Shown here piece after piece: positions 11,421 through 58,250 of a stretch of DNA of 64,000 nt. Each line of letters begins with the position of its first letter. Within the stretch, counting starts at the first letter, position 1. This DNA is from Anaeramoeba flamelloides (Eukaryota; Metamonada; Anaeramoebidae). The DNA is taken from contig JANTQA010000012.1 in the NCBI GenBank assembly GCA_027625915.1, positions 8,082,501 to 8,146,500 of the forward strand, read 5' to 3'. The notes beneath the pieces were generated by a model that was given only the letters and a program-made list of their open reading frames with translations, ran no database searches and was not told where the DNA came from. The translations under genes were made by a program, and so were the position numbers.

Positions 11421-11894
11421 GGTGTCCAGGCTTTCTTGAATTTTTCTGTTTATTTGTGAAGTTTTCTAGGGTTTTTTTGAGGTTTTCTATATTATTTGTG
11501 AAGTGTTCTAGGTTTTTTTTACTTTTTGAAATAAACAGAAAATTTTAAGAAATTTTCGGTTTATTTCAAAAAGTCAAAAAAACCTAACGAAAATCTATTG
11601 ATTTTCCAAATAAACAGAAAATTAAAAAAAACCTAACTGCAGTTGTTCCATGATTCAAAAGAATAGAGTATAATAAAAGATTTAATTTAATACTTTTAAA
11701 TTCTGGAAAAAATACCATAGTTAGACTTGATTTTTACTATTTTATTTGTAAAATCTATTGATTTTCGTTAGGTTTTTTTGACTTTTTGAAATAAACCGAA
11801 AATTTATTAAAATTTTCTGTTTATTTCAAAAAGTAAAAAAAACCTAGAAAACTTCACAAATAAACAGAAAAATTCAAGAAAACCTTAAGACACC
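11421..11894. repeat. Hairpin-array element D1 (nested palindromes)
   Basis: The outermost arms of about 60 bp (GGTGTC, then TTTTCTTGAATTTTTCTG) at 11421-11480 and 11832-11894 are inverted copies. Inside are two complete hairpins (about 11510-11600 and 11765-11850) with stems of the type TTTTTGAAATAAACAGAAAA, closing with AAAACCTAAC or AAAACCTAG. Between them lies a second stem type built on TTCAAAAGAATAGAGT. It shares modules with arrays at 19.9, 36.2, 46.5 and 57.7 kb. No protein frame. Confidence 0.75.
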
Positions 11895-11967: not shown

Positions 11968-12045
11968 CTCGGTTTCCATAATTTAAAAGAATTTTGTAAT
12001 GTAAATGATTTTACTCTATTCTTTCAAATTCTCAAAAGCTAACAG
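11968..12045. repeat. Single hairpin module, EcoRI-type stem
   Basis: Arms of the second stem type found in the 36-kb array: ATTTAAAAGAATTTTG pairs with TACTCTATTCTTTCAAATT, and the module closes AAAAGCTAAC. A solitary module near the large array. Confidence 0.5.
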
Positions 12046-14281
12046 TAGTTTTTTAATTTAATATTTGAAAAGAAAATTTAAATAATTTTCTTTTTATTTC
12101 AAAAATTATTACAAGCAAATGAGAGTGAAAAACTTTTAAATTTGTTCATACAAATGATATTATTAACTTTAATATTGATAATTTAATTATTTTTCCTCAC
12201 ATCTTTTTGATTTATATTGATAAAATTTTCATTGTATACCCCTTTCTCTTAATAAATTAATAAAAAAATAAAATCCAGAACTTTTCAAAAATTTAAACTT
12301 TTTTTATTTGTATTTGAAAATCATGGTGTTGGTCTAGATATTGTATCGACTTGATTTCCAATAATTTTATTCAATCTTAAAATATTAAACCATTCCTAAT
12401 TTAATTTTTTAATTTCATTTTATAAAATAAATGATATTTCAAATCGAATTAACTCTTCCTTTAAATGACCTTTTCATGAGAAGATTCTGATTTTAAACCA
12501 GTCATATCCAAGTAAAAAAAATAATCGAATTCACATTATAACATAGATAGTTACTTTAAAAGCACAGAAAAAACAATTATACAAAATTAAAAAATAGATT
12601 AGAAACCAAAACGCAATTTTCCTCTCCAAAAAATAGAAATTTCTTTTTTTTTTTTTCTTAATGTATATGGAAGAGTTCAGATAAATTTAAAAAAAAAAGA
12701 AAAAAAAAAGAAATTTTTGTCATTTGAAAAAAGAAATTTTCACAATATTTTGGTTTACAGAATATTCAAAATCAAATAACATTGAAACGAAAATTGTATT
12801 ATAATTTACTAAAAACTTTTAATATAATGAAAACAAAGGGCATTTCTTTGTACATTTGTTTTTAAAAATGAACAAGACTTTATGAAATTGAAGGTGCATC
12901 TCTTAAGTTTAATTTATTCAATCAAATTGCTGGAATTTCCAACAATAACAACAGTACAAAATATAATCTTTTTTTTTTTTTTTTTTTTTTTTTGAGTTAG
13001 GAAATATTTAAATAATAAATCAAGATAGTTAAAAAAGATTGTATATAACATTAGTAATTTTTTAACTTATGTGATACAATTATATTATATTAAAGTGTTA
13101 GCTATTTAAGCAACTTTTTAAAAAGAATATGAATAATTAATTATTTGCAACATTCTTGTCAACATGGCCACTTTATTTCAATATTAGTTTTTTCAAATTT
13201 CTGACAAATTAGAAAAAAAAAAATAAATAGATATCAACAACAAAGTAAATAAATTTATTTGTTTTAGATTCAAGTTGAATATTTGAAAAAATTCTTCAAT
13301 ATTACTTTATGACCAAATCTTATATTAGTGAAAATATTTGGGAAAAATGATTATTTAGGACTTGAAACCAAAAATAAAAAAAAATAACTTTTACATCAAA
13401 TCAAAAATAGATCCAAATAAAATAATTGTTTTTTACAGTAAAATGTATTGATTTTGAAGAGTTAAACCACAGTTTACACTTTATTTTGTTAAATTTTAAA
13501 GCCATTAATCCGTCACAAAAAGTCAATGGGTATTTATTTTTTAATTTTCCAAATTAGTAAAATAATATACCCCAATTCAAAATTTTTAACACACCAAAAT
13601 TCGATTTGTAAAAAAAAAAAAACTTATTTAATCACTTCAAGAGGATATACCAAATTAGAACCATTCACAAATTGAAATGTTAACACTTGTTTATAAATTA
13701 CAATACTCACAAAACAATAAATAAATAATTACCAATACAAATAAATCCTGGGTGTGTCAAAAATTTTGGAGAGAGCAAAACAAAAAAATACATTATTAAA
13801 TTTGTTTAAATTCTATTAGGAATATTGATCGATCAAATAGTTAGATATACCAACTAATTTTATTTGAGTTCTTCTATTTGGTTCAACTCAACTTTAACCT
13901 AATATCGATGGTTGAAAAAAATTTTGATCGAACGAAACAAGTTACTTCATTCAAACAATGAAATGAAAACAAAAACTAAAAGATGAAAAAATGATTTTCA
14001 TATTTTACAAAAATCAAAATTATCTCCAATTTCAATGAAATTGTATTATTGTGATTGTTTGGAACGTTTTAGCTGTGTGGAAAATTTTGAATTTTAGTTT
14101 AGTTTGTCATATCTTAACATAATATCTGACTTCTCTTTTAAAATAATCATTTTTTTTTTTTAAAACCATTTTTTTCCTTTTCAATGTTGAAAAGAAGAAA
14201 AAAAATCATTTGATTAAAGGTAAATGGGGTGATATATATTTATTAATTCAATTATTCTTTATTATATTCTCGATAAATTTA
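12046..14281. other. Intergenic, no gene seen
   Basis: AT-rich and homopolymer-rich, including a run of about 25 T at 12969-12993. No reading frame or inverted-repeat element was recognised. Confidence 0.4.
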
Positions 14282-19836: not shown

Positions 19837-20023
19837 CCGTTAGGTTTTTTTTAATTTGAGAAATAAATCGAAAATTTCACAAATTTTTTTCTTTATTTCT
19901 TAAATTAAAAAAAACCTTGGCACTTCACGTTAGGTTTTTTTTACCCTTTGAAATAAAAAGAAATTTTCTTTAATTTTCTTTTCATTTCAATAATTAAAAA
20001 AAACCTATGCACTCTACTGCACT
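19837..20023. repeat. Hairpin-array D2 (two tandem modules)
   Basis: Two head-to-tail hairpins, each opening CGTTAGGTTTTTTTTA and closing TAAAAAAAACCT. Each is followed by a GCACT word (TTGGCACTTCA, then TATGCACTCTACTGCACTT). The stems differ in sequence while the edges are constant. Confidence 0.7.
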
Positions 20024-29214: not shown

Positions 29215-30647
29215 TTTTTTTGAAAATAATATTTTCAATACAATCTAACCCTAATAACAAAATATGTGTTATAACTTTAGATATCTATAAAATAAATTTT
29301 AAAAAAAATTGTCAATTTTGATACAATTTTAAATTTTGATAATTATAAAGCTTTTTGTTTAAAAGTGAATCTCGTTTTTGGATGGAAAAAAAATTGAAAT
29401 ATTTTGAAAAAAAAGTCCTTAAATTGTAACAATTTCTATTGACTTTGTATTCTTGAAAGTCAATAAATAGAATGCTTAAAATTGAAAGGAATATTATCTG
29501 AGAGTTAAATTCCATTTGCCTACAAGTTATACATCTTAAAAAAGTGGAAATTTCATTAAAAAAAGTCTGGGAATGTTGATGTTATTGGTTGTTTAGGATG
29601 GCTGCCCTTCCGAGTAATATTAGGGATTTTAATTTTCATTTTTTTACGTTGTAACTTGAAAAGTTACTAATTCAAATCTTCTTAAAGTACCAGTAACTTA
29701 ATAAAAGGGGAAAGAGAACTCAAAAATTTTAAAGATTTTATGTGAAATAAAATAGTTTTAAATTAAATAAACTTTTTTTCTTCTTGAAATTAAGAAAGAT
29801 TAAAAATAAAAAAAAGGGACAGATTAAAATAAATAGTATCATCATTTTATTGAATTACAGTTTGAAAAAGTTTGACAATATCTTGATTAAAAAGAAAATA
29901 TTTTGAAAAAGATAATCAAAAAAAAAATAAATAAAATGAAATAACCGTATTATTATTATTTTTCGAGATGAATTTGGTTATAAGTGAGAAAATGTACTAA
30001 TTTTTCTTTTTCTTCATTTTATTTCCTTAATTCTTTGATTTTTTTTGTTTTGTATTCTTACATTTTATCAATGATTGGCAAAAAATTTTTGGGAAATTAT
30101 TACTATTCATAATTTCTTGAATTGATTTTTTTAAGTATTTTAGATAAGTAAATTGATTTTGTCATCAATATAAAAGTTTTTTTAAACAGTTTGTATTGGT
30201 TGTGAAAGGAAAAATAAATAAAAATTATTTAATGATTTGTAGTGTTTAATTACTTTAAGTATATAAAATCCAAAATTAGATAAAATTTCAAGAATAAATA
30301 CTTTTAAAAATATGTTTGAAACCCAATTTTAACCCACGAGGTTTAAAGATTTTTTTTTTTTTTTAACCAAGTCACACAAGTTCGGTTCATCTCTTAAATA
30401 TTTTTTTTTTAATCAAAATCTTAACCAATATCCTTGCTGGTCATCCAAACCTTACTCTATCCTAACCTAACCTACCATACCATTTCCTGTCAAAAGGGGG
30501 GTTTTATGTATCTACAGCATATTAAATAACAATAGAATCAACTTTGTGAAAAAACTGATTATTTTCCAAACTTTAACCATTAATAGTTTTTATCATTATG
30601 TTTGACTAACAACAATTTCATCATCCAGATTAATTCTTTTTGTTTTA
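29215..30647. other. Intergenic between convergent genes
   Basis: No gene seen. A more complex 60-base patch near 29570-29635 (GGATGGCTGCCCTTCCGAG) and a CCTAACCTAACCTA motif at about 30464-30478 stand out from the AT-rich background without explanation. Confidence 0.4.
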
Positions 30648-30845
30648 CTGTCAGTTCCACTTTTAAGGCACAAACTTTCAACGGAATTTAAGGCACAATA
30701 AAAATCTCAAATTAAGGCACAAAATTCAGATTCTAGTAAAATAAATTGTAAAAAAAAAAAATTACAAATTTTGTGCCTTCATTTGAGATTTTTATTGTGC
30801 CTTAAATTCCGTTGAAAGTTTGTGCCTTAAAAGTGGAACTGACTG
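30648..30845. mobile_element. Mariner-like palindromic MITE (198 bp)
   Basis: Nearly the whole element is one palindrome flanked by TA. Ends are CTGTCAGTTCCACTTTTAAG and, reversed, CAGTCAGTTCCACTTTTAAG. Each arm has three copies of TTAAGGCACAA spaced about 25-30 bp, separated by CTTTCAACGGAA and AAAAATCTCAAA. TACAGT ends with TA duplication are typical of Tc1/mariner elements. Arm identity is very high, so this is the youngest copy in the window. Confidence 0.88.
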
Positions 30846-31254
30846 TATTTACTCAATAAAAAAAACAAAAAAAAAAAAGTTTATGTAAAAATGATTTGTG
30901 GTAACAATTTCGATTTATATACACTCTGAAGTGCATTAATTATTATATATTTTTCTTCTTTTATTTGTATCATTTCAACTTTATATATACAGGTTTTTAA
31001 TTATACAAATAAATAAAAAAAAAACCAAAAAAAGGAATTCAACAAAAAGGTAAAGTTTTTAGAAAAAAAGATAATTAAAAAGCTAACAAATTATTATTAT
31101 TTTTTTTTACAGAGAATATTTTTTTTTTATTTATTAATCTAAATTCTTGTTAAAAAAAAATATAAATTTATGATTTTTTTTTTTTTTTTTCATTTTACTC
31201 GAATGTGGAGATTAATTTAATCTTTGTATGTTTGTATATGAATATATACATTGT
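30846..31254. other. 3' flank of the CS-Sel1 gene
   Basis: AT-rich, with A and T runs. Presumed 3' UTR and terminator region of the minus-strand gene. Confidence 0.4.
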
Positions 31255-34200: not shown

Positions 34201-37200
34201 TTTATTTTTTGAAAAATCTACCTTTTTTTTTTTTTTTTTTGGTTATTGATAAATATCAATAAATTGTTTATATCTCATCAAGTAGAAAATTTTCCCTATA
34301 ATTTTATATTTAATTCATTTCAATTTACAATCATTAATTTTTCAAATTCTTTGAATGTTTTGAAAACCAAATACAGAATAAGAATTGTTTCAGTTTGATC
34401 TGTAAAACAGTAAATATCCCAAACGAATCAAGATAGATCAGAATAAATGGAAAAAAAAAAAAATGAATAAAAATATCAAATCAAAAGTAAATAATCAACA
34501 TACCAATTTGGATACACCCTTCTGGAGATTTGGAATATTTCGATTTTAGTAAGTGTTTAAATGATTTTTTCAAATCAATTTCAGTCCCAAAACCACCCTT
34601 TTCATAAATTACAGATAAACTGAGATGCGCATCATCACATCCACGTAAAACAGCAAGTTTATAATATTCAACAGCTTTTTTATAATCTTTTGTACACCCA
34701 ATTCCTTGAAAATAAAAATGGCCTACCCTACAAAATAAATAAATAAAATTTATAAAAAAATAAATAATTAAAAAAAAATTCTTTTATTTAATTTTTAGAT
34801 ATTATTGATTTAAAAATAAAAAGTGAAAATATTTAATTGTGGTATTCCATTCTGGGCATGATTTATGCATTTTAAAATAATTTTACTTTTCCCACGATTT
34901 TAAAAAATATCGTCATAGTTCAATTAGATAAACTCTTATAAACACGTTGGTGAATCAGAATAATCATAAAAAGTTTAAATAAAAAAGGAAAATAAAAAAA
35001 AATTATTTTGCAAGTTTCAGAATTTAAATAAAATGATTTTTCAGAAAATGAACAAGAGCAAAACTGTCTTTGTGATAATACCGAATTACATATATGCCAT
35101 ACAATTAATGTATTGCCGGTGTTTATTTTTACATGCTATCAATAATAATAACAAGGCCATCTTCGTTGTTATGAGTAAAGATGTATTTCGCATTAACACC
35201 ATTTCAGTCCAAAGAACTTAAATATTTCGCCTATTAAAACAAAAAAAAAAAAAAAAATATCATAAATTTTTCTCGAGTAACCGTTGATCCATAAACCATT
35301 TTGTGTTTGAAATTAACATTTTAAAATAATAAAAAAAAAAGCACATCACTCCCAAGAAAAGTTCATATTATAAAAAAATAATCGATTACACCTTGGTTGG
35401 TAATATCAACAAATTTCTATATTTACAGTAGAATTATCAATATTAAAGTGTTTTAATTTTGTTTTTTTAATATTTTGAATCTTTTTTAGTTTGGTTATCT
35501 TTGCATTCGTAATTTGTTTTTAGATTGTGGGATTGTTGCTTAAATTTTCGGATTTGGGAAAAGGGTGAAGTAAAAAAAAATAATTTCATCAAAAATGTTC
35601 AAAAAAATACAAATTTTTTGTTTTTTAGGTAATTATTTTTACTAATATCTATTTGGATTTCAGATCAAAGAGTCAATTTTTTCCAACAATATACAAACAT
35701 ATTTCCATGTTTTGTGAAAAATAGTTAATTCTGAAAAACTAAATTGAAATTTTCTTTATCAATTCTTAAAGGATCGAGAAAGTCAAAATCAAAAAGTTGA
35801 TAAAACTTTTGAGTTAATTCATATTTGTTTTTATAATATGAATAAAGATTATATCTGAAAAAGTGTGTCAATTTTACTTTAGGTATATTTTGTGATAAAA
35901 AAAACACATTATGATTTTTTTAAAAATTAATTGTATTTGTTAATTATTTTCAAAAACATTAACAAGTAATTAGACTAAAAAAAATATTTCATAACATATT
36001 CTGTCATTTAAAAATATTGTAAAGTTTCTTGATTGTTTATAAAAGTTATAAAAGAGGATTTTAACTTTTTCAATAAAATTTAGTAATTTTTTTTTTTTTT
36101 ATTTTGAAGGAGGAAATTAGTTTCCTCTTACAGACGTTAGGTTTTCAAGAATTTAAAAGGATTGAGTAAAATCTTTGGTTTTTCTCTATTCTTTTGAATT
36201 CTTGAAAACCGCCGTTAGCTTTTTTTTAATTTGAGAAATATAAAGAAAATTTTTGAAAGGTTCTTTTTATTAAAAAAAAAAAAAAAAAAACGCCGTTAGC
36301 TTTTCCTGAATTCAAAAGAATTGAGTAAAATCAAAGATTGTTCTCTATTCTTTTGAATTTTGGAAAAGCTAGGCACTCTACGGCACTTAAGGTACTTGAA
36401 TGCACTTCCCTAATTTCTAAATTTTTGTTTAAGAAATTTAAATAAAGAATCACAATTTTCTTTATCATTGACCAATGACAATATGAATAATGATTTTTTA
36501 TTATTTTTATTATTTTTTTTCTTAATTTGAATTAATTCTTTAATCGAAAATTTTTGATTTTCTTATATAAGAATGAGCGTCGTTAGGTTTTTTTTAATTT
36601 AAAAAATGATCGATATCTTCATCCATTTCTAAATTGAAATATTTTTTGAATAAATTGCAAAATTTTGTTTTTATTGTATTTTTATGATAAAAATAAGAAT
36701 ATCTATGTCGGTAATTTGTGAAGTTTCTAAGTTTTAATATGGGTAGTAGAACAAAATTTAGTAATTTTGAAAACTCATTTTGAATAATCAAAAATTCCAA
36801 ACTATTAGTCACACTTGATAGGTGCCTAACTTTGTATAAATTAATTTAATTTCCAATTTGAAGCTAAACCCTGAAAAAAGAATTGACTATAAAAATAAAA
36901 AATAAAAAATAAAAAAAGTACGTAAGTTGTCTAAAAAGGTATATGTTATATATCTGATTAATATAAATTCTATTTCAATAATAAATTTCAACAAAATTTG
37001 GAAACATTGATAATAAGATAATAATGAACAAAAACTAATTTCTTTTACAGTGTATTTCCAGTTAAGGGGGGATCCACCTCTTGTCCCATTTCACATCTCT
37101 TACAAGAAAATCAATTTGCTTTCAATCACAGAGACTTACAATGTTCTCATTTATAATAATTTCAATGATAAATATTTTTCAGATGGGTTAATTTTATATA

Positions 37201-40200
37201 AACCATTTTCCAGTCAAAGTGGCCGAGTTGTAGTGAGTGAATTGCATGTGTTTAAACGGTTTGAATGGATATTCGAAGAAAAAAATTATTTCGGAAATTC
37301 CCAAATTGAAATCATTTTTTCACATTTTTCCTTTTTTTTTGATTTTTTTTTGAAACGTAATTCATTTATAAATTTTTTTTTATCGCAAGATCAATAGTAA
37401 CTTGGTAAAAACCTGTTATTCTAATGTTATTGAAATAAAGTAAAAATGATTGTAGAGAAATCATTTCGATTTCTATTGGAATTTGATTTTGATTTTCAAT
37501 TGAAGATCAAAATGAACCTTGTTGTTTTTCTCAATATTCCCATAAGTATTTGGGTTTTTCAATTATTAAGAAAATCTATTGTTTTATTAGTTTTATTTCA
37601 GGTAGATATCAACTATTTTTTGGATGTTTATTATTCTACTTATTTCTTATTTTATTATCAAAGCTCATTTATAAAAATTATTTGATATTTGAAAACAATG
37701 TTTTTTTTTGGATAAACCTTTGACTGAAACAAAGTTTATTTTTAACAATTCCTTTAATTCGATTTCTGTTAATTGTGAAGTTAATGAGTTGTAAATTTTA
37801 TTTTTTGAAGTTGAAAAAAAGAATTTTTTCATCTTTCTTTTTAAGTGTCTAATACCAATTAAAAAAAAAATTAACATGTGCATAGTATGTACAATCGATT
37901 CCTAAAAATCAGCACTGAAAAAACAAAGACATTTTTAGAAAAAAATTATAATAGAATTACAGTCAATTACACGTTGAAATCAACTTTACTATAAATTATA
38001 ATTTTAAATACACGTATTGTAAGCTTAATTTCAAAAAAGGGGCAGATTTTTAATCAGAAAAAAAATTGTTTAATTGTTTTTTTTTGAATAATAATAATTT
38101 TACTAAAGTGTTTAGAGATAATAAGAAATATAGATTAATAAAAAAAAATATAGTATAATCATTTTTATTTTTTGAAAGACAAATGAAAAAAGAATTAAAT
38201 AATATTAAAAAAAAAGTTTGCCCCTAATTTTGAAATTTGGATTAATTTCTGGGGTTTCAGTCTTTATCGATTTTTGAGTTTTGATAATTTTTTTTTTCAT
38301 TTTTTTTTGATTTTTGAAATGAGTTATTTTTTAATCTAAAGAATATTACAAAAACATAATATTATCTCATATAAAGTATTACAAAACAATCACAAATTGA
38401 ACTCAACTGAATTAAATTGGTTTTATAATTGAAGAAAATAATTCGCTTTAAATTAAATAAATTTAAATATTTGAAAATATAAAACAAGAAAAGATTGAAT
38501 TTTTGAAATTGGAATTTTTGGAATTGAGATTTCTTTTACACTTTTTTTTTTAAAATTTGAATGATTGCTGTTTGGGATCCTTTGTATTTTTTTTTAAATT
38601 GGTTTTTTTGCCATTTAAATTCTCTGGACTAATGGATTTTTGTAATTGGGGATGGTGTAAATATTTTGGTTCATTACATTGTAATATTGAGAATCTTTTT
38701 ACTTTTTTTTTTGTTAATTGGAAGTTTTGTATTCAAATATACTGTAATTTTTTTTTGTTTTTTACATTTTTGTAATTGAAGATCCTATGAAATTCTTTTT
38801 TTAAAAAAATTTAATTTTAAATATTAAAATGTTTTAAATCCTTACTTTATTTCTTTTAATTGTTTAAACTAAAAGAATTCTATTTTTACATTATCAATTT
38901 TAGGGAGTAAGTCACTTCTTGGGTATGAAGCAAATTCATGGTGAGTGGCTATACCCTCAAACTAAATTAAATACTATTATTTTCCAAATAAAAAATGAAA
39001 ATTTTTAGTTCACATTCCAAAATATTTTTCTAGTTGATAAGTTGATTGAAAACCCAGAGATCTTGACAACATCATTTAGAAATGATATTTTTCGGCAATA
39101 AAGTAAACTTCCTTAGTGATACTCTAAGATAAAATTTTTACTCTGCTAATTTGATTGTAGCAGTAATAATTAATATTCATTTTGGAAATTGAAAAAAAAA
39201 TTTTCATTTATTATTTGGAAAATAACAGTAATATTAATTTAATTGAATAATAAGTAAGTTTATCAAATAGTATTGGAAAATGGATAAAGCGAAATTAAAA
39301 AAGGGACGGTGTATAAAACTGGGAGTTTCCAGCTTAGGTATTGGTAATTTTTTGAAGATCAAATATTCTCAGAAAAAAATTTCACAAAGATTAAGTAACC
39401 CTTAAATTGAAAAAGAAAAACTTTGATAAAAAAAAAAAGTTTTTTAAAGCCACTAGAAGCGATAGGATAAATTAGGGAAGACTGAAGCAAATTCAAACCA
39501 TGGGTATTTTTGTTCAGAAATATATCACGTTAAAAGCGGAAGGAAAAAAAAATATTTTTGTAAAAAAGTTGCTTTTTTCAAAAACAAAAAGGTAAATGAA
39601 CATTAAAAATTTGATGCAAGCATATTTGGTTGATAAAGAGTATAATAAAAAAGAAAAAGAAAAAGAAAAGAAACTCACATCAAGGAGGAGTCTGAGTGAC
39701 CTAAATCAGATCCCATTTTCCAGTATTTGAGTGCAAGAGGGAAGTCTAATTTTATTTTAAATTTGGAATATTCGGTGTAAATCGCAGCAAGCTTAAATAT
39801 GGCCGTGAAATGCTTCTTGTCTGCTGCCATCTTTAACAAATCAAGAGACACTGAGTATTCGTTGTTGTGCTCATAAAAGGCAGCTTTTAAAACAAGAGAA
39901 TGTGGATCGATGTGGCCTTTGTATTTTGAAAAAATTAACAACGGCCATTTTATTGGGTTCTTTTTGATCAACATTATCATAAAGATCCCGTTTGTGTCAA
40001 AAATTGTTCGAGATTTTTTCACGTCAATTGGACCAAATAGGATCCCACAAACTATAGGCTCCGATCCCTTCAAACCGACAGACAAATGGTTTTCTCCTTG
40101 ATCAACTTGGATCGCCTCTTTTGTTGTTCCCGGCGGTATTGGGAAAGTTATTATGGTTTGGTTGGTTTCATCTGTGAGTTGATATTCAAATTGGTGTAAT

Positions 40201-44093: not shown

Positions 44094-47000
44094 ATGAAAA
44101 ACCCTTTCGTAACTTTTTATAACTGGACAAAGAATCTTGAACGGATCCACAAACTGTTTCTTTTTTGTGTTTTGATTGAATCAATTATTTTGATCGTGAC
44201 ACAGCTTGTTGGTGTTGTTGATTATTCCCAAAAGCGTGAAATCATTAGCAGAAAAACCTTGATCTTTTATTCTGTGCTTTTCGCTCTTTCAATTGCATTT
44301 GGGTTTTTTTTCGCTGTTAGGATTGTTGTTTCAAGGAATATGTACCAATACATAACCTTTACGATCGCTACAGTGCTTTTAACTGGGTATGCTATCTATG
44401 AAATTGGGACGTTATATTCGAACCCAAGGATCATTGCGTTCTTTTGCATAGTAATATTTTTTGATGTCATCTATTTATTTCTGTTGAATAGAATGCTTAC
44501 AAGTTTTAGATTTGCATTTTTTTCAATTGCTGGTGGTAGCCATTTAATGAAAGTTCGTTCTACTATTCTTTAATTGTTTTTTTTTTTTTTTTTTTTTTTT
44601 CTTTTTCACTTTCCCATTAATTTTTTTTTTGTTTTTATTCTTTTTGCTGTTGTTTCCAAAACCTAAATTATGTTTCTGAAACTAGATTTTATATCGAGAC
44701 TGGTCAATAATCATTTCTCAAATGCAATTAGATATTATGGTTAATGTTGTTCTTCTTTTTGCATTAGCTTTTTATGCCTCACCAAGTTCTGATCCAGATT
44801 TTTGGATCAACCTTTTTGTAGTGATTCTAGATATTGTTGGGATTTATATTGGATACAAAGGAGTAAATCTTTTTTTTTTTTTTATATTATTTTTTTTCTT
44901 CTTTTTGATTTGATTCACAAAATGTCAAATAAAATCCGATGACGAATTTTGGCCAACCTGATCCTTTTGAAATGAAATAGAAAAAGAAAAAGAAAACGAA
45001 AAGAATTTAGAAAAAGAAAAAGGGAAAAAACAAAATATTCACCAATATTTTTTAAACAGTATTTAAAAAAAAAAGCCAACAAAGTTGATCGAAAAATAGT
45101 AACAGGGAAATAGCACACATGTACAAAAATGAAATCACAATTTCATCAAAAAACCATGAAAAATTAAGAAATCATTTTTGTACCTTTATATTTCCAAAAA
45201 AAAATCATTTTTTTTGAATTTTTGTTTGTTTATTAAACAAAAAATATAAAAATGACATTTCTGATCTCAAATAAAAGATCACACTTTATTTTAATCAAAG
45301 CTATATTTCAAAAATTGTGACCCAACGCCAGTATGAAAAAATAAAATTTCAAATATAAAGTTAGACAAAACTACTGCTTCTATTAACTTTTCATCATTAA
45401 TAATAAAGTTTATTTACAATATAATCAAAATTCCAGAACCTCAAATTCTTGAGGCTATTGTATTTATTGTTGTCAGTAGTAGAACCTTTTTTAAAAGTCT
45501 CTGGTCAAGAAAAAAAGGTGTTTTTTTGGGGTAAAAAATTTCAAATAAACTGGAAAAATGAATTTTAGTTTAATTCAATCTTGGAGATATTTATTTTGAT
45601 AGATAATAACTAATAAACTCTTTTTCAAATAAAAGGGCACAAAAAATTTCAAGAATTATTCAGAATTGAATCAAATTAATTGTAGTATCATTCTAAAATC
45701 TAAGAAACTCTTTAAAACATAAAAAAACACTCGACTGGATATTTAAAATAAATTAAAACAAAAAAATAAAAATTAAAAGTAAATATTTTAAAAATTGATG
45801 TGCCCTTTTATTTGAAATGAGAAATCTCGTTTTGTAAATTATAAAGAAAAATTATTATAAAATCAATAAAAATCGTTGAACAAGGTGAATTGAGGAAAAG
45901 TTCTTTACATTTTATTGATAACTCTTTACACGTCAAACTTTTGTTCTTTAAAGTTTCATTTTCAATATTAAGCCGCAATTCATCGGGTATTTTGTTGGAA
46001 TTTTTTTTTTCAATATTTTCTTTTTTTCCATGTTCCATACATCAATTCAATAATGGAATTGTCTTAATTCCTATATCTAGCTCATTCGAAATCAAACTTA
46101 AACTGTTTCCGTTTTTATACTGGAAGATTATTTCCAAATTTTTTTCTTCTTATCTTGTTTTTTTCATTTTCCAACTGTTCAATATCCAAAAAAAAAAACA
46201 TAAAATGAAAAAATGAATAATTAAAATGAAAATCATCAATAAGTAATTCTCTTATTAACAATACAATTTAATAGGATTGATGATTTGAGAGGTGTGCCCT
46301 TTTGTTTGAAAAAGAGTTTATGTTTTGAAAATACTGTACTCGTCTAATAAAACTAAAATAGAGAAAAAAATACCTTGTGATAAATATTCAGTGTCCGTAG
46401 AGTGCCGTAGAGTGTTTAGCTTTTCTTGAGGTTTTCTGTTTATTTAGAAATCGATAGATTTTCGTTAGGTTTTTTTGAGTTTTCTGTTTTATTTGTGAAG
46501 TGTTCTAGGTTTTTTTACTTTTTGAAATAAACCGAAAATTTATTAAAATTTTCTGTTTATTTCTAAAGTAAAAAAAACCTAACGAAAACCAATAGATTTT
46601 CCAAATAAAATAGAAAGCCTCAAAAAAACCCTAGAACACTTCACAAATAAAACAGAAAACTCAAAAAAACCTAACGAAAATCTATCGATTTCTAAAAAAA
46701 CAGAAAACTCAAGAAAACCTAACGGCAGTTTTTTTAATTCCAGAATTCAAAAGAAAAAAATATTTTTTCCAATTCAAAACAATAAATAATTCTTTAATTA
46801 TCAAAATAATTGATTATCCATTTGAAAGATATTTATTAAAATTAAAATGCTTTTAAAATATATTATTATAACCACTTAACTGCGAATAAAAAAAAATTTT
46901 CAAATTTTTTACTATAAAATTTCAAAAAAATCTTAATGGAAAAATTGGATTTTCACAATAAATTTGTTATTTTTCTTGAAAAATAATATTTGATCCAAGA

Positions 47001-48247
47001 TCTTTTATTAACCAATAGTGTTTATTATTCGTGAAGTTATCAAAAAGTGAAAAATTAGCAAATATTTAATTTTTATTTTCACAAAATTTTTTCATGTTCG
47101 TGTTTGAATGATAAACAGGAAAAAATTTTCACTTCGTTTTCCATACTTTTCTTTTAGAAATCAAGTTCCCAAACGAAATTTGTTGGGATTTATGGTCTCT
47201 ATTTGAAAAAGGAAATGAAAATGAAGTGAAAATTTTTCACATTTATTAATCAAATATAAGGATCAAAGATTGAGTAAAATTCCAATAGAAATCAATATGA
47301 TTTCTCAATAATCATTTCCACAATTTCAATAACATTAGAATAGCACGTTTTTACCAAGTGACTATTGATCTTGTAATAATAAAAATTTTTGCAAATGAAT
47401 TAGGTGTCAAAAAAAAAATCGAAAAAAAAAATCTCAAAAAAAAATGATTTTAATTTTGAAAATTTTCAAAATAAATTTTTTCTTCTAATATCTATGCAAA
47501 CCCTTTAAAACACATGTATTTTACCCATTACAACTGAGCCCCTTTGGCTGAAAAATAGTTTAGTTTATTTTGTTTAACTGGACTCAACCTTAACTTTCTA
47601 TCAATTATTAAGATTTTTCAAGTAATAAATGCATTAATTTAAATAATAACGTGGAATTCTAAAGGTATTTTCAATTGTATTGCCCTTAAGGTGAAATGTT
47701 AAGAATAACAAAATAGATTTTCTTTTTATTTTGAAATAGAGTTTAAAATTAAACATAAATTTAAATCCATACGTTTATTTTTCCTCACTTAAAATTCTAT
47801 ATTTCAATTTTCTTTATTACTTTCTTTATTTTGACTTTTTATTATTATTCTTATTCTTTCTATTTCTCTTTAAAAAAACAGATTAAACTAGAAAAAAAAA
47901 TTTTTACAAAAGCGTATTTGGTTATTGTATTTTTACAGCCAATATATTATATTATTAAACTTGTTTTAATCTGGAAAGCAGAAAAAGAAGATACAACAAT
48001 TCCTATAACAATTATGATTTCTTTTGGAATTATTATTCGAATTATATTAATTATTTTTATCATCAAAGTTTTAAAAAATTTTGGAAAGGGGTTGAAATAT
48101 CGATTGTCTTCTGAATATGTTTCTTCGGGGTGGTTTTCTACCACTGAATCGCGCAATGTACAAAATGGGCTTTTGGATCAAGATAGTAAACAATTAAACA
48201 AAATGGAAAAAATTTCATCATCTTCTTCAAATATTATAAGCGATTAA
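44094..48247 (+). CDS. Polytopic membrane protein (about 8 TM), 3 exons, function unknown
   Basis: Exons 44094-44552, 44686-44862 and 47882-48247 all join in phase 0 to 333 residues plus TAA. The frame is open upstream to 44025 but ATG 44094 gives a normal short cytosolic start. Eight hydrophobic segments are visible: roughly residues 20-45, 60-85, 90-112, 118-140, 167-187, 190-212, 222-246 and 255-277. After the fourth comes a polar block, YRDWSIIISQMQLDI, created by the first splice; then GYKGIKLEKK, created by the second. A tail of Ser/Asn/Lys follows. The aromatic-charged block before TM5 and the G-x-K-x-E loop before TM7 look like a family signature seen in uncharacterised eukaryotic multi-pass proteins (such as the DUF7789 type), but I cannot name it firmly. 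Intron 2 is 3.0 kb and full of mobile elements. Confidence 0.82.
45616..46318. mobile_element. TA-flanked inverted-repeat element F (703 bp)
   Basis: Ends AACTCTTTTTCAAATAAAAG (then GGCAC) and, reversed, AACTCTTTTTCAAACAAAAG (then GGCAC), with TA at 45614-45615 and 46319-46320. The repeat E copy at 57.5 kb lacks it and reads ACTAATACTTTTGAAAA across the site, confirming a two-base TA duplication. The frames of 76 and 108 codons inside have no motif. Ends and length resemble element C, suggesting a common mobiliser. Confidence 0.85.
46411..46728. repeat. Hairpin element D4: about 320-bp near-perfect palindrome
   Basis: Arms run inward through GAAATCGATAGATTTTCGTT, AGGTTTTTTTGAGTTTTCTG and GTGAAGTGTTCTAGG to a central hairpin of GAAATAAACCGAAAATTT type, and back in reverse order ending AAAACCTAACGGCAG. 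Sub-palindromes (ATCGATAGATTTTCG) sit within the arms. No frame. Confidence 0.8.
47108..47560. mobile_element. Element C family, left-truncated copy 2
   Basis: Matches 6320-6785 at high identity (e.g. GGTCTCTATTTGAAAAAGGA, GTTTTTACCAAGTGACTATT) and ends AATAGTT before TA (47561-47562). The left terminal repeat is missing. Confidence 0.75.
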
Positions 48248-50946
48248 ATCAATTGTTTTTTTTTTTTTATTCAATACTAATTAAAGTTATCAACTTTTAT
48301 AATTTGTTATATCATTTATCCGTTTTGGTTATGTTTTAAAATGATAAATTATAGCAATGTATTCAATGTTAAATTTACTATTATTTATTTATGAAGATAT
48401 ATCTGTAATTGGATTCTTTTATTATTCATTTTATAAGAAATTATATATATATATATATATAATTAATCGATAAATCTAATAATAAAAATCTAAATTTTAT
48501 AAAAGGTTTTTTTTTTATTATTATATGTTAATATTTTCTGATACAGTAAAGATTGAAACTTATCTTCCAATGGAAAAAGTTTGTTAGACATTCTTATTTA
48601 AAGTGGGTTTTAATGTTTAAAACAAAATTTTAACCAAAACGATAAAGTAGAGCAAATAGTTATTCTTTTAAAGATCTTAAAAAGGGGGCTTTAATCGAAT
48701 ATAATAGATAATTTAAAATTTTTAGAAAAATTAATATTTATATATGAAGACAGTTATTTAAATTATAATCTTGGAAAAAATTAGAATGTATGTTTTATTA
48801 ACTAATATAATTTCTACAAAAAGAATATCTTTAAAAAAAATTGAAATAACAATTTCCCAAAAATAAAATACATATTTATAATTATTGAAAAATCTTGGAA
48901 AATATAAAAATAGAAAAATTCGCTCTTAGACCTTCTCAACTTTATGTATGCCAATTGTTTACACAAAATTAACAATATCAGTTATTTTTTCAAATTTAAT
49001 TTATCTAAAATTCAATTAAATAAGTAGAATAATCCAGATTAGAGAAGAAATGATATCTATATGAAGTTAATCGAATAAATCAATAGATTTTCTTAACAAA
49101 TTCAAAAACTAAAATGCCTCATTTACTCATTGAGAAAGAAAAATATGATCGTTTTGATCTTCAATTGAAGATCAAATAAAATACTAATTAAAATCAATAT
49201 GTTTTTTCGTTAATAATTCTCACTGTTTAAATAGCATTAAAATAGCATATTTTTACTTGGTGGTTATCGATCTTGGAAAAAAAAAATCATAAGTGAATTG
49301 GGTGTTAAAAAAAAATTTAAAAATAGATAAAAAGATAATGTGAATTAAAAGGTGAAAAAATGATTTCAATTTTGAGAATTTCCAAAAGTTATTTTTTTTT
49401 CGAATATCCATTCAAATCATTTAAAAATAATCTTTTTGATCATTGTAACTTAATCCACTTAGCTGGTGGGATTGTTTGATTATTATTTCGAAAGGACAGA
49501 ATAGAATTTTTTGAGGAATTAAAAAATCAAAAGAATTTTTGAACAAAAGCTGAAATTTTATAGAAAAATTTTAAGGTTAAATAATCAATATTCAGACGCA
49601 AAAGTTGCAAAATATATTTCTTAAATTTGTGGCAGAATGTAGATAAGGTAAAAAAAAATTTTTTACAAAAAAATTAAATAATTAAATTAGTAATTATTTT
49701 GAAAAATTATTTGTCTAATAACTTTAAAATATAGATTTGTTTCATTGAAAGTGAACTAAAATAGCTCTCTAAAAAAGGGAAAACAAAATAATAATTCATA
49801 ACATGGCTTTTATATTGATGATTAGGAGTTAACCAGTGAAATTAAAAAATTATTAAAATAGTTCCTTTTGAAAGTTCTAAATATTTATTTTAAAATTCAG
49901 GAAAAATAAAATATTTTGTTTTGATCATGTTATTTGGAAAAGGAATTAAAAAAAAAATATTAATTCAAAAATTTTCAGTGAGACCAGGGTAAAGTATCTA
50001 ATAATTTTTGATTGTTATATTTAGATTATATTTTGAGAGTTTATTTTATTCCATAATATTGGATATGATTCACTTTCGATTATAATAAATTTTGGCTTTG
50101 GATAATATATAGTGATATTAATCCAATTATGGGTAAACTTTTAATGTTGAAATTAAGTAAATAAAAAAAAATGAATGGAATCATATTAGTTTTAGTTTAA
50201 AATAAAAATACTTGGCTTGTAATTAAAACATAAATATTGTTTTAATCTTGATGAGTTGATTGGAATTGTTTTTATTTTTTTTTTTATTTCTTTGAGATTC
50301 TGTCCTGGTGAAAATCTTGATTTAATAAAATCAAAAACATTGATCTAAATTAAAATTATATGCTATTTTCGTATTTTTTGATTTTATTTTTTTTTTTTAC
50401 TGTAAAAAAAAACCATGATAGTATTTATTGAAATTTGTGACTTTTTTTAAATGTTTAACATTATAATTACATAAATTCTAATATTAAAAATTATCAATTT
50501 CTTAAAAAGTGTGGTTTTTCTTTTTTATATTTGAAATAAGATTATCTTTTTTTGGTTGGTATAGGAATAAAATATTAAAAAATATCAAAAATAGTATTAA
50601 TAATTGAATTAATTTCAATTACTGGATTTGTTTCCGTATATATTCATTAAAATATCCAGAATAAAATTAGAAAAAAAAATTACATTATTTTTATACCAAA
50701 GGTGACACAATAAACTTCACTAAAAATTAACTTTGAATTAAGAAAGTGTATAAATGATTCTTTACCTAATACAGTTACAGAGTACACCTTCTATTTAGAA
50801 TTTTTAACTGGAAAAAAATAAGAGGGAAAAATATTTAAAATCAAAATGGGGTTAATAATCGCTAATTGTTCACCTTTAAAATATATTTTTATCTGAAATT
50901 GGTATCTGAAACTTTATTTCTTTAAACTTAGTAATACAATACCCAA

Positions 50947-50979
<33 letters not shown>

Positions 50980-51988
50980 GTTATTAAGGACCAATAAATA
51001 ATAAATAACAATTTTGGATATTTAAATATTTATAGTAGAATTCAGTTTATTAAAGATATTTTAAAATAAATTTGTCCAATTTTATTGAGTATAGATGATA
51101 AACAGAAATAACTTTTAATAAAAATTCAGAAATTTAAAAAAAAAATAAATTTTATTATAAAATTCTGTTTAATCCTTGTTATTGTAGGTTTCAAAATTAA
51201 CTTTTATATAAAAAAAACAAAAAATGTTGTAAAATATCATAGAATAAAATCAAAGGTAGATCATTGGGATGTTTGAAATGATGATTCTTAGAAAAACTCT
51301 CTTCAATAATAATATTAAATAAATACTACTTATTCTAATTTTTTTTTATCAATGATTAAAACTTTAATTCTCATCTATTTCAAATATAATTATCTAATTT
51401 GCTGGTGTTCCTGTAATCCGGAATAATATAGCTATTTATTTGATTTTTTGAATTAATTGTTATTTTTTTAATGTTAAAATCAATCAATTTTCTAAATGAA
51501 ACAGAAATTAAAAAAATATAATGGCAATTGCTTTTTTTTTATCGAATAGAATAGATTGCACCCTGCTATGAAAATTATACAGTATTGAAATTGATTTTCA
51601 AATTTTAAATTTTAACATATATAATAATCATAGAATGGTTATGAAAGTTTATCATAAACTGTAAATTGTTTAATAGAAGAAAAAAAATTATGTTTTTTTT
51701 TTTTTGGAAATTATGTAAATTTGTAAAAAGAACCAACAATTAAAATGGATCACCAATTTTCAAAATTGTAAAATCATCGGTCTAAACAATTAAAAAATAA
51801 TCACCTCAAAAAACAGTTTTAAGTTTCATATGATTTCTTTTCTTTTAAAAAATTAATTTTTTACTTTGTTTCTAAGAAAAAAAAAAATTCTCTTATGCAT
51901 GAAAAATTAAAACTTTTATATAAGAAATGATAGAAATTGAATTTTCTATAGGATAAAATATATTTTTATCTTTGATAACCAATTTATA
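48248..51988. other. Intergenic, mostly unassigned
   Basis: Contains an AT dinucleotide run (about 48447-48466), a diverged partial element C (about 49080-49475) and a run of about 26 A followed by about 8 G (50945-50978). No gene seen. Confidence 0.45.
49080..49475. mobile_element. Element C family, diverged partial copy
   Basis: Shares AAAATCAATATGTTTTTTCG, TTTTTACTTGGTGGTTATCG and GAAAAAATGATTTCAATTTT with the copies at 6.6 and 47.3 kb. Terminal repeats are too decayed to place. Confidence 0.5.
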
Positions 51989-52529
51989 AACCATTTTACA
52001 GTCAAATGGGTCGGGTTTTAGTGTGTTGTTACATGATTTTAAAGGGTTTGAAAGAATATTAAAAGAAAAAATTTATTTTGGAAATTCCAAAATTGAAATC
52101 ACTTTTTTAACATTTTTGCTTTTTTCTTTTGTTCAATTTTTTTTAATTTTAATTAATCTCATTTGCAATTTTTTTTTTTTCATTGCAAAATTGATAGCCG
52201 CTTGGTAAATCCCTGTTATTCTAATGTTAATGATAAATTTAAAGTCATTATAGAGAAACAATATTTTATTCTTTTGTAATTTTATTTGATTTTCAATATT
52301 AGATCAAAATGAACATTGTTTTTTTTTTTTCGAAAAAAGATAAGATAAGTATCTGGGTTTTTCAATTTTTAAGAAAATCTATTGTTTTATTAGTTTAATT
52401 TCAGGCAGATAACAACTATTCTTTGGTGTTTATTATTCTACTTATTTCTTATTTAATCTTCAAAGGTCATTTATAAAAAATAATTGATATTTGAAAAAAA
52501 TTTTGGGAACCTTTGACTGAAACAAAGTT
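51989..52529. mobile_element. Element C family, copy 5 (541 bp)
   Basis: TA-flanked (51987-51988, 52530-52531), ends AACCATTTTACAGTCAAATG and, reversed, AACTTTGTTTCAGTCAAAGG. Colinear with 37201-37736 throughout. Confidence 0.8.
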
Positions 52530-53036: not shown

Positions 53037-54383
53037 TTAGTCTGATTCTTCTGATTCCTCCGACTCTTCTGATCCATCTGATTCGTCTTCGTCTGATCCG
53101 TCTGATTCATCTTCATCAGATCCGTCTGATTCATCTGATTCGTCTGATTCGTCTGATTCGTCTGATTCGTCTGATTCGTCTGATTCTCCTGATTCTCCTG
53201 ATTCTTCGGATTCTTCAGATTTTGTTGATTCTTTTGGTTTTTCTGGTTCATCTGATTTTTTGGATTCTTTTGGTTTTTCTGGTTTTTCAGATTCTTCCGA
53301 TTCATCTGATTCTTCAGATTCTTCAGATTTTGTTGATTCTTCTGCTTTTTTTGAATCCTCTGATTCTTCAGATTCTTCTGATTTTTCCGATTCCTCCAAT
53401 TCTTCTGATTCTCCCGGGGTGTTTGAAGCGTCTTTAGATTTTTTAGAATTTGGTTTTTCTTTTCCTTTGTTTTCTGACTTTAAGGGGTTGTTTGTTTCTT
53501 TTGAATTTTCAATCTCCATTGTATTTGAATCAAGATCTTTATTTTCTTTTTCTTTTTCTTCTTCTTTGGCCTTTTCCTTTTCTTGTAATGTGTTCTTTGT
53601 CTGATCATCTATTGTACTCACTTGGCTTGAATTTTTTGTTTGATTCTCATTTGTTGTTTGATTACTTTTTTTTTGTGTTTTTTTTTTATTTTTTTTTTTA
53701 TCTTGATCCTTCTTTTTTTTTTTTTTATCTTTATTTTTATGCTTGTTCTTGTGTTTGTGTTTGTGCTTATGTTTTTTTTTATGCTTGTGCTTATGCTTTT
53801 TTTTTTTGGTTTTCTTTTTGTGTTTGTGTTTCTTTTTGTGCTTATGTTTTTTTTTATGCTTATGTTTTTTTTTTTCTTTCTTTTTTTCTTTTTCTTTCTT
53901 TTTTTCTTTTTCTTTCTTTTTTTCTTTTTCTTGTGTTTCCAATTTCTTTTTTAATAAAGAAATCTCTTGGTTTTTTTGGATTAGCTTTTTTTCCAATTCG
54001 GTGTCTTTGATTATTTTTTTGCGATAAGGAGAAGGAAGGTCAGAAGGGAAAAAAATGATTTTGTCTTGGATTTTAGATAAATGGCTTTGTGTATTCAAGC
54101 GCCGTTGCTTGTGCTTTTGAGAGATCGTTTCCGTTTGATGGAAATTGACATACAGCTCCCTTTGATCACGAAACAATTGTTCAAGTTTTTTTGAATCATA
54201 GATCGACGGAAGCTCAAAGAGATCATCGCCTTCCTTTTTTTGAATGGTTTCAATTTTTAACGTTTTTGCAAACAAGTCATGATAAATCTTGATGATCTCT
54301 TTCTTTAATGCTAATAACGTTAAAGATTTTTCAAGATAAACAACGTACTTTTGATCAGGTGGACAATAAATTCGAAATTCCAT
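53037..54383 (-). CDS. Ubiquitin-like-fold candidate with Lys/His and Ser/Asp/Glu repeats
   Basis: Single exon of 448 residues from ATG 54383 to TAA 53037-53039. Residues 1-82 (MEFRIYCPPDQKYVVYLEKS, then a helix LTLLALKKEIIKIYHDLF and IYDSKKLEQL) have the strand-strand-helix order and hydrophobic spacing of a beta-grasp domain such as ubiquitin-like or PB1. That is a structural guess. A short basic linker and a coiled coil (about 125-155) follow, then KKKEKE and HKHKKK repeats to about 240. The C-terminal 170 residues are Ser/Glu/Lys and then pure SDE/SDG repeats. A strongly basic block beside a strongly acidic block makes it a polyampholyte. Histone- or nucleolar-type partners are imaginable, but no function is assigned. 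The gene is divergent from the homeodomain gene, 1.1 kb apart. Confidence 0.8.
   Translation of the reverse strand: MEFRIYCPPDQKYVVYLEKSLTLLALKKEIIKIYHDLFAKTLKIETIQKKEGDDLFELPSIYDSKKLEQLFRDQRELYVNFHQTETISQKHKQRRLNTQSHLSKIQDKIIFFPSDLPSPYRKKIIKDTELEKKLIQKNQEISLLKKKLETQEKEKKKEKEKKKEKEKKKEKKKHKHKKKHKHKKKHKHKKKTKKKKHKHKHKKKHKHKHKHKNKHKNKDKKKKKKDQDKKKNKKKTQKKSNQTTNENQTKNSSQVSTIDDQTKNTLQEKEKAKEEEKEKENKDLDSNTMEIENSKETNNPLKSENKGKEKPNSKKSKDASNTPGESEELEESEKSEESEESEDSKKAEESTKSEESEESDESEESEKPEKPKESKKSDEPEKPKESTKSEESEESGESGESDESDESDESDESDESDESDGSDEDESDGSDEDESDGSEESEESEESD
53040..53420 (-). repeat. SDE-coding tandem repeats
   Basis: Runs of GATTCGTCT and GATTCATCT (read on the plus strand) encode Asp-Glu-Ser repeats, and degenerate TCAGATTCTTCT units follow. 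Synonymous changes between units suggest protein-level maintenance as well as slippage. Confidence 0.8.
53720..53930 (-). repeat. KHKHKKK and KKKEKE coding repeats
   Basis: The plus strand shows repeated TTTTTTTTATGCTTATG and CTTTCTTTTTTTCTTTTT units, encoding the Lys/His and Lys/Glu tracts. Plus-strand Phe/Cys/Leu-rich frames here are shadows. Confidence 0.75.
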
Positions 54384-55493
54384 CAAAACTCACTCTAAAA
54401 GAAAACTTTCAAGAAAGGATTTTTATTTTTTGGAAAGATAAAAAGATGAAAAAATGATAAAAAAAAGACCTGTTCTGTTTTATTACGTAAAGTAAAATCT
54501 AAATTAAAGTATCCAAAATCATTCAACTTGTTGCATTATGGTTGAAATTTCTCGTCCTTTTTAGTCAATACCCTAAAAACTAACACCACGATTGGGAATG
54601 TTTAGCTTTTGAACATTCAATAATTTGATTAAAAAAAATTTATACGTAACACATGAAACTCTCATTTGTGAAGCATGTAATTCCTTAATTGAACAATTGA
54701 TTCTTTTGATCGCTTTTTTCTGGATCTGTTGATTTGTTTATTTGTTGAATTAACGTAAAAGTAACATTATAATTCGAGAAAGTTTTTTATTTCTTGTTTT
54801 CTCGATACGACTCTTCAATCAAGTCTGTAATTTATATCTAAATCAAGTTGGTTTTGAATTTGGGTATTTTTAGGATTTATTAATCAAATTTTAGTAGAAA
54901 ATTGGTCCAATAATCTGCTTTTTGGGTTATTCCCTGAAAATATTGTTTTTTTGTTTTTAACAAAGACCTGAAAGAGTTAAAAATTTGAAAAATTTCTAAA
55001 AAGGAAAAAATATTCGTTAATGAATAAAAATCTTAACAATAAATGGTTTTTTTGATCAAATTTCCCTCAAGTTTTTTTCTTTTTTTCAATTAAAGTCTGC
55101 TAATTAAAGATTCAAATAATACGTTAGGAATAAAAAGGTTTTAAGAAAAATAAAAAATTTGCTTTCTGAAGGATCAAAATAATTGAATTCTCTGTTTAGT
55201 AGCTTGTATTCTGTGATTTTTTTTGACTATCAATATATTTCCTCTTGTAAAAATAATAAGAAAAACAAAAACTATTTTTCCACTTTTCAATAGATAATTT
55301 TGATTAATACAATTGATCAAAAATTTAAGAACATTAACTAAATGGAGTTTTTAATTCCAAAAATTGAAATACTAAATACGTTAAAAATTAAAAATGAAAA
55401 AAAAAAAATGTTTTCTCTCAATAAAAAATATCTATTTTTTTTTTCCTTTGCAAATATATCCTGTTTATCTTTTTTCTTTGACTTAATTTTCAA
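54384..55493. promoter_or_regulatory. Shared divergent intergenic region
   Basis: About 1.1 kb between the starts of two divergent genes, free of the mobile elements that fill other spacers. Both promoters must lie here. No TATA or other motif could be separated from the AT-rich background. Confidence 0.45.
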
Positions 55494-57224: not shown

Positions 57225-58250
57225 ATCACTAGTATGAAGAAATAAAATTCAAAAAAAAAAAAAGTTAGACAAACCTATTACTACAATTATCATTTTATCC
57301 TTGTTAATTGGGTTTATTCACAATATAATCAACATTCAAGTTCTTAATTATCTTGGGGTAGTTGTATTTATTGTTGAGAATATTACTACGATTTTTAAAA
57401 GTCTTTTGTATATAAAAAGTTCTATTTTGTTGTCATTTTTTTTTAAATGAATGTGAGATGAATTTTCATTAAATTCCATTTGAGGATTTTTTTTTTGAAG
57501 AGATAATAACTAATACTTTTGAAAACTCTCTTATCATCTAAAAAAACTTGAAATACTAAAAAAAATAATATATGATAATTATTGTAAGTGTATTTAAAGT
57601 ACCCATAGAGTACCGTCCAGTGCCTAGGTTTTTTTTTAATTTCAGGAATAAAAAGAGAAAATCTTCGATTTTTCAAATAAACAAAAAAGCCAAGAAAACC
57701 TAACGAAAAGTGTCCGCCAAGTGCCTAGATTTTCCAGAATTCAAAAGAATAGAGAAAAATCTTTTGAATTACTCAATTCTTTTAAATTCTGGAACATCTA
57801 ACGGTTTTTTTTTTTTTACTTTTTGGAATAAACAAAAAATTTATTAAAATTTTTTGTTTATTTCAAAAATTAAAAAAAACCTAACGGTAAAATCAAAAAA
57901 AATTATTTTTTTCAATTTAAATAAACAAATATTCTTTAATAATAGAAAAAATTGATACCTCCTTTGAAAGACACACCCCAGATTTAAATACTTTTAAAAT
58001 ATATTAAAATGACATCTTAACTGTGAAGAAAAAAAATTTACAAATTTTTTTACTATTAAATTTAAAAAAAATATTAATAGAACCTAGGATTTTTCAATTT
58101 AAATTGTAAAATATCTTTTAAAATAATTTTTAATTAAAGTTCTTTTATTAACCAACAGTGTTCATTATAATTTTAGTTATTAAAAAGTGAAAATTTAATT
58201 AATATTTAATTCATTTTTGAGAAAAAATTTTAATGATCGTGATGTGAAAA
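57225..58250. repeat. Dispersed repeat E, copy 2
   Basis: Same orientation and order as 45300-47105 but without element F. It keeps the uninterrupted target ACTAATACTTTTG at about 57505-57518 and a D hairpin region at 57613-57887. Confidence 0.65.
57613..57887. repeat. Hairpin-array D5
   Basis: At least two hairpins: a GAATTCAAAAGAATAGAG stem (about 57735-57800) closing ACATCTAACGG, and a TTTTTGGAATAAACAAAAAA stem (about 57810-57887) closing AAAAAACCTAACGG. Modules are bordered by AGTGCCTAGG and AGTGCCTAGA words. It occupies the same place in repeat E as D4 does in copy 1, but the hairpin content differs. Confidence 0.7.

Follow-up and report, generated by a model that had tools for sequence, protein, structure and literature searches.

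Among short palindromes without an enzyme of their own, the GC clusters of yeast mitochondria (GC42 and its kin) share a 13-base end that joins 76 sequence types, and these clusters merge and shuffle and have altered bases beside their insertions, as described in the available portion of PMC4478555; the same portion presents the multiplication and recombination of such palindromes as still poorly understood, even in yeast. REP hairpins carry a constant short tag, GTAG, at one end (PMC3733652, in excerpt), REP/BIME hairpins are grouped in mosaics (PMC2817692, in excerpt), and Tetris, a foldback element from Drosophila virilis, is described, in the excerpt available, as modular and apparently non-autonomous, with tandem repeats in its inverted arms (PMC4079207). 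The window analyzed here, a stretch of 64,000 nucleotides from Anaeramoeba flamelloides, contained hairpin modules with constant borders. The best explanation for them, to which we give about an even chance of being correct, is that they form polar arrays of palindromic cassettes without an enzyme, lodged mostly in transposons, with stems exchanged at the hairpin bases in the manner of yeast mitochondrial GC clusters.

The first-pass annotation had described three successive hairpins opening with CGTTAG, and their starts were confirmed at 36135, 36213, and 36294 on the plus strand. The hairpin modules were real and far beyond chance. CGTTAG occurred 17 times on the two strands of the window, against a mean of 4.6 and a maximum of 10 in 100 dinucleotide shuffles. 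Eight long gapless palindromes (score of at least 16 in a purpose-written script) were detected in the window, seven of which were these modules, and none was detected in each of five shuffles. The A edge, represented by the 20-base pattern CGTTAGCTTTTNNTGAATTC, matched 2804 places genome-wide with at most two mismatches; when the pattern was reversed, 14 places matched. The GC content of the window was 19-32% per 2 kb, the genome comprised 254 Mb in 76 contigs, and the window's genes included domains such as homeodomain and CS; the arrays are probably nuclear.

Three palindrome families were distinguished, namely A (GAATTCAAAAG type), B (GAAATAAA type), and C (TTTTCTTGAG type), and their stems were AT-rich, about 75 nt long, and without coding capacity. 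The difference in stem type among the three hairpins, as first described, was borne out: hairpins 1 and 3 were of type A, and hairpin 2 was a decayed B whose far arm was largely an A-run. Besides these two families and the third, C, there were palindromes nested in palindromes, at 46.4-46.7 and 11.4-11.9 kb. The recurrences that had been placed at 11.5, 19.9, 46.5, and 57.7 kb were located at 11.4-12.1, 19.8-20.0, 46.4-46.7, and 57.6-57.9 kb. Of the closing words that had been proposed, the third hairpin closed with GCTAGGCACT, and the first two ran into the following CGCCGTTAG. The edges were constant, as claimed, but polar when read on the minus strand, where the array ran from an AGTGCC/GTACC minisatellite through CTA, stem A, CTAACGGC, decayed stem B, CTAACGGC, stem A, and CTAACG to the 3' tail of a LINE (Table 1).

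Table 1. Arrays and associated features in the window, and array sites in the LINE probe
Feature	Position	Strand	Remark
Nested C/B palindromes, A stem between two B stems	11428..11893	.	
A-B array, decayed	11973..12108	+	
B-B array, LINE site 3	19838..20013	-	
LINE 3' tail, TGTAAGAGGAAAC..TTTCCTCC + A-run	36090..36134	-	80% to LINE probe
Polar A-B-A array, site 3 of decayed LINE copy	36135..36378	-	reads 36378 to 36135
CTAACG constant right border	36135..36140	-	CGTTAG on plus strand
Stem A, last position	36139..36210	-	ends GG...CC
Stem B, decayed	36217..36292	-	ends GCTAACGGC
Stem A, first position	36298..36370	-	ends CTAGC...GCTAACGGC
AGTGCC/GTACC minisatellite, left end of array	36372..36407	-	right after LINE ORF end
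C-terminal part of LINE reverse-transcriptase ORF, decayed	36408..36860	-	extent approximate
Remnant of another array (half B stem + CGTTAG) in LINE ORF, site 4	36581..36600	+	by eye against L049, L042
C(B)C nested array in element Y (~45320-47105)	46416..46724	+	
C-A-B array in element Y (~57231-58241)	57627..57882	+	
LINE site 1	between 258 and 261 of LINE probe		array inverted relative to LINE
LINE site 2	between 305-309 and 311 of LINE probe		array direct
LINE site 3	between 679 and 678 of LINE probe		between ORF end and tail
LINE site 4	within last ORF part, roughly placed		L042 between 480 and 546; window remnant at 36581

Other repeats were observed in the window. Two pairs of inverted repeats, 2353-2607 with 2781-3035 (255 nt, 89%) and 30646-30726 with 30767-30847 (81 nt, 98%), held no A, B, or C module, and an inverted pair of repeat copies (82-89%) lay 58-59 kb apart at 1171-1953 and 60472-61248. 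A further dispersed repeat family was found at 6314-6790, 37199-37484, 47100-47565, 49168-49425, and 51987-52284; its copy at 37199-37484 adjoined the LINE copy there, and that at 47.1 kb adjoined element Y. The reading frame at 53037-54389 contained a stretch rich in lysine and histidine, together with a 9-base tandem repeat that encodes acidic, serine-rich repeats.

Profile searches of 322.5 kb identified 78 A, 81 B, and 31 C modules, 190 in all, arranged in 57 arrays with 1-11 modules each. This inventory set comprised 54 sequences and 322,547 bases, the duplicates L002 and L008 being left out; most targeted loci were picked for holding the A edge, L049-L055 were picked for holding the LINE, and the sole unbiased part came from contig C24, where twenty stretches of 10 kb (200 kb in total) were taken at a spacing of 1 Mb. 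In these unbiased 200 kb, 28 modules in 11 arrays occupied 0.96% of the bases, which scaled to a genome estimate of approximately 35,600 modules, with a wide error.

The arrays followed a polar grammar, [AGTGCC/CGTAG minisatellite]-CTA-stem-CTAAC-(GGC-stem-CTAAC)n-G; on the right the edge, CTAACG, was fixed, whereas on the left the minisatellite formed a ragged one. A typical stem was preceded by the minisatellite and CTA, or by CTAACGGC, and was followed by CTAAC plus G. A CTAACG-like word stood only on the 3' side in 109 of the 190 modules, only on the 5' side in 9, on both sides in 1, and on neither in 71; array orientation was set by the border words, and this count measures agreement within arrays, 12 of which had a single module. 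The outer bases were similar across all three families, G[GC]TTTT...AAAA[GC]C.

In 44 of the 57 arrays a flank matched, over at least 45 bp, the probe for the LINE (27 arrays), for a second, short repeat, element Y (14), or for both (3); about six of these matches, at 45-75 bp, were weak, and five of the arrays belonged to loci picked for their LINE (L052-L055), the proportion being 39/52 when these were left out. In the unbiased sample 6 of 11 arrays were matched (Y 3, LINE 1, both 2, these two weakly for the LINE) and 5 matched neither probe. Of all 57 arrays, 13 matched neither probe, and several of these ended in tails that by eye resembled those of other LINE families. The replicating modular hairpin that the first-pass annotation had proposed was only half right: most arrays, including the majority of the unbiased ones, were flanked by other transposons, and self-replication would be conjecture.

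In L049 the LINE had a 550-aa open frame with a match to RVT_1 (E = 1e-23), and the frame sequence matched solved reverse transcriptases named group II intron, retron-type, and R2. Because of these matches, the A-run, and a short GAGG..CTCC tail hairpin, we took the LINE to be a non-LTR element; no endonuclease was identified in it. Arrays occupied four sites of the LINE. Copies in L049 and L050 were uninterrupted at sites 1-3 and that in L051 at sites 1-2, and in L052 and L054 site 2 was filled and site 1 empty. Genome-wide, site 3 was found in the empty form at 731 places and as the filled right junction at 765 (controls 0 and 1), these counts being lower bounds from patterns of 21 and 18 bases and their ratio rough; the filled form of site 2 was found at 318 places (control 0). 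Insertion into the LINE was precise, with no target duplication of more than about 2 bp seen. Since the bases adjoining CTAACG at sites 1 and 2 (ACA) differed from most empty copies, the junctions could be placed only to approximately three bases.

Element Y was a repeat that measured approximately 650 bp without its array, and by eye its short inverted ends were similar. Its junction occurred at 1012 places, against 80 for the control, and the Y copies examined with both flanks all held an array, only L009, L022, and L026 among them not having been selected for arrays. In L045 a LINE copy with a full tail and A-run directly preceded the right part of Y, at the place of Y's array. The window's Y copy contained a repeat of about 700 bp (45613-46322), which was also present in L004 and L011 and partly in L005.

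That the 3' edge is fixed and the 5' edge ragged, with no clear duplication of the target, would also suit another reading: the reverse transcriptase of the LINE would have made the arrays as 3' modules of that element, joining hairpin RNAs with the 3' end CTAACG end to end by template jumping during cDNA synthesis. This would be a special case of the cassette explanation, and we consider it rather unlikely. LINE flanks were the commonest (30/57), an RVT_1 reverse transcriptase with R2 among its sequence matches was present, and the title of PMC8857657 lists template jumping among the activities of an enzyme of this kind. However, the array at site 1 was inverted relative to the LINE, the array's own edge lacked an A-tail at sites 1-3, and element Y, whose short ends by eye resemble terminal repeats, also carried arrays.

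The outer bases provided evidence for stem exchange. The base before CTAA was G in 31 and C in 11 modules when another stem followed directly, and G in 10 and C in 52 when it did not (pooled p = 3.5e-9, with modules treated as independent, 5 with T left out, and 109 of 190 right ends parsed). For stem A alone the G:C ratios were 23:1 and 7:14, respectively (p = 1.2e-5), and the effect of position was not significant for B alone (p = 0.072) or C alone (p = 0.33). The outer stem base tracked array position while the interior could be A, B, or C; therefore, the edges are fixed and the palindromes seem to be exchanged. Among the 32 of 57 arrays with a host site labeled by hand, the last stem varied at one and the same site, being B in 6 and A in 3 at LINE site 2 (n = 9), B in 7 and A in 1 at LINE site 3 (n = 8), and B in 9, A in 3, and C in 2 in element Y (n = 14). 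One stem type per border, named beforehand as a sign of chance assembly, was not what the copies showed, since last stems at the same site differed. These results agree with the first description, in which the edges stay constant and the self-complementary inserts are swapped. Neither an exchange intermediate nor a mobilizing enzyme was identified for the arrays examined.

It is unlikely that a C-A-B composite was instead inherited vertically, its stems only lost or duplicated and never exchanged, and the order and relationships of the stems bear on this possibility in both directions. By simple text rules, 133 neighbor links were classified as direct CTAACGGC-like (53), minisatellite (38), C-stem parts (20), other (16), and inverted (6). 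The direct links were A-B 29, C-A 8, B-A 7, C-C 3, C-B 3, B-C 2, and A-C 1, with neither A-A nor B-B among the 53, against about 9 of each expected arithmetically from the frequencies; a preferred order C, A, B therefore exists. The minisatellite links included A-A 6 and B-B 3, and the 16 other links included 3 B-B, two of them where B pieces abutted in L007. The B-A links speak against the composite, as do first-position B (2) and C (4) stems that had A-typical GC ends after CTA. Mean identity between stems of the same type was similar within and between arrays (A 0.818 vs 0.814, B 0.847 vs 0.836). Near-identical pairs (at least 92%) were commoner within arrays (A 5/35 vs 37/2890; B 6/49 vs 129/2914), which indicated that local duplication happens and is also what the composite would predict.

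In trees built on 73 columns from 61 stems of type A and 65 of type B (those shorter than 60 nt and unlabeled arrays left out), the A stems of Y were scattered, in conflict with the composite: the Y label required 17 changes, against a shuffled mean of 17.6, and was as low in 216 of 500 shuffles. With all host labels the A stems clustered slightly (28 changes vs a shuffled mean of 31.7, as low in 13 of 200). The B stems clustered clearly (26 vs 33.0, as low in 0 of 200; 11 vs 21.1 for the Y label), and this partial sorting of B by host favors the composite. It also counts against cassette exchange, as do the excess of near-identical pairs within arrays and the 5 of 11 unbiased arrays without a host match. 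Because stem order was not free (A-B in 29 of 53 direct links), part of the pattern could have arisen as an ancestral C-A-B composite decayed.

The possibility that stems flip between their edges was considered and rejected. Among A stems 18 of 54, and among B stems 21 of 57, had a nearest relative in another array that was flipped, and close pairs were same:flipped 14:3 (A) and 34:19 (B); these counts prove nothing, because a simulated flip-free star tree of perfect palindromes gave flipped nearest relatives in 27% on average and in at most 61%, with close pairs at about 6:6. Mirror-state linkage was only suggestive, being as high in 69 (A) and 256 (B) of 5000 shuffles.

The modules are quite improbable as ordinary palindromic MITEs inserted into one another with TA target duplication. 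Many stems read TA-G[GC]TTTT...AAAA[GC]C-TA and some palindromes lay at the center of others, as such insertion would give, but there was no TA to the left of stems after GGC, the edges were polar, and in 322.5 kb TGCCTAACG, CGTTAACG, GTTCTAGAAC, and stem-CTAG-stem each had 0 occurrences, so that a TA duplication with vacant sites was not found in the sequence examined. The remark that the modules are unlike ordinary MITEs was therefore fair. TTTTCGAAAA, a possible vacant center if the duplication were CG, had 38 matches on both strands of the 322.5 kb. A CG-duplicating foldback element at sites 1 and 2 was rejected: in place of inverted arms around a foreign center, the inverted arrays there lay about 47 bp apart around the LINE's own sequence, L052 and L054 had only the second of the two sites filled, and the guessed vacant sequence was absent in exact form, its 54 two-mismatch matches being mostly the filled form. 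An integron-like reading of the GTTAG border was also rejected, as its direction is opposite to that of attC. The 19-base link AAAAGCTAACGGCGGTTTT matched four viral contig stretches, which we took as chance; each of the four matches fell within a short open frame (66-76 codons) containing the peptide KKANGGF, none was surrounded by a palindrome, and in two stretches examined frames of at least 120 aa did not cover the match.

A structured-RNA family with folding under selection, the other proposal of the first-pass annotation, accounts for the strong self-complementarity and is nevertheless hardly credible, because no Rfam family was matched at its gathering score, both-sided changes were few (A, 21 of 1235 paired cells; B, 62 of 1313), one A pair had two mispaired states in 30 of 44 rows, and G-U, which should exceed A-C if RNA folding were kept, did not do so, G-T and A-C mispairs on the polar strand numbering 43/42 in A, 29/29 in B, and 12/8 in C (41 A, 45 B, and 12 C stems that could be oriented and paired) and, in the alignments, 45/45 (44 rows) and 23/35 (45 rows). 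Such near equality of G-T and A-C fits decay at the DNA level.

Passenger cassettes exchanged at their stem bases are preferred because the right edge is fixed and the left ragged, there is no clear target duplication, the sites are common to hundreds of host copies, and the outer bases are bound to position. Each host site would have been entered rarely, and the array would then multiply as a passenger whenever the LINE or Y is copied. Stems may be swapped, deleted, and duplicated when a polymerase, either a DNA polymerase or the LINE reverse transcriptase, switches template at the hairpin base, where CTAACGGC and the TTTT/AAAA runs could provide matching ends. Exchange may proceed through DNA repair, replication, or reverse transcription; the inverted array at site 1 and the arrays in Y point to a DNA process, and the large number of LINE hosts points to reverse transcription. 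More tentatively, the arrays may represent nuclear cassettes without their own enzyme, consisting of fixed polar clamps and interchangeable palindromes, which would spread as hyperparasites of two unlike transposons and pass stems from one to the other, the hairpin structure being the unit of exchange. In the open-licence literature searched, the available portions gave no account of arrays of this kind in a nuclear LINE or a nuclear genome. The estimated 35,000 copies, together with a LINE site that is filled in hundreds of copies and empty in hundreds of others, would provide enough material for dating insertions and mapping exchange points, and the same copies would help to distinguish reverse transcription from DNA repair.

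The arrays resembled several known systems, and we regard the yeast GC clusters, REP, and Tetris as analogues. A Helitron ends at its 3' side in a hairpin followed by CTRR. In the arrays the stem was followed by CTAA, but with no spacer between them, and the 5' end was variable. Tetris, as far as its available description goes, is modular and apparently non-autonomous like the arrays, but its repeats form the transposon's own terminal arms, whereas the arrays are polar and lie inside other elements. REP/BIME, like the arrays, have a hairpin whose one end bears a short constant tag; they differ in being bacterial and in being thought to be mobilized by tyrosine transposases (RAYT), and the Y1 tyrosine transposase PF01797 had 0 matches at E 0.001 in the genome (control matches in 5 of 14 genomes). 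Closest in their logic are the yeast mitochondrial GC clusters, which, as described in the portion available, are palindromes with a constant end, a varied remainder, and shuffling, and the arrays likewise consisted of palindromes without coding capacity that had a shared end and an exchanged remainder. The GC clusters are mitochondrial, GC-rich, and 18-86 nt long with AG or ACT repeat flanks according to the same description, whereas the arrays are AT-rich, with units of about 75 nt, and lie in the LINE and Y of a 254-Mb genome without clear duplication.
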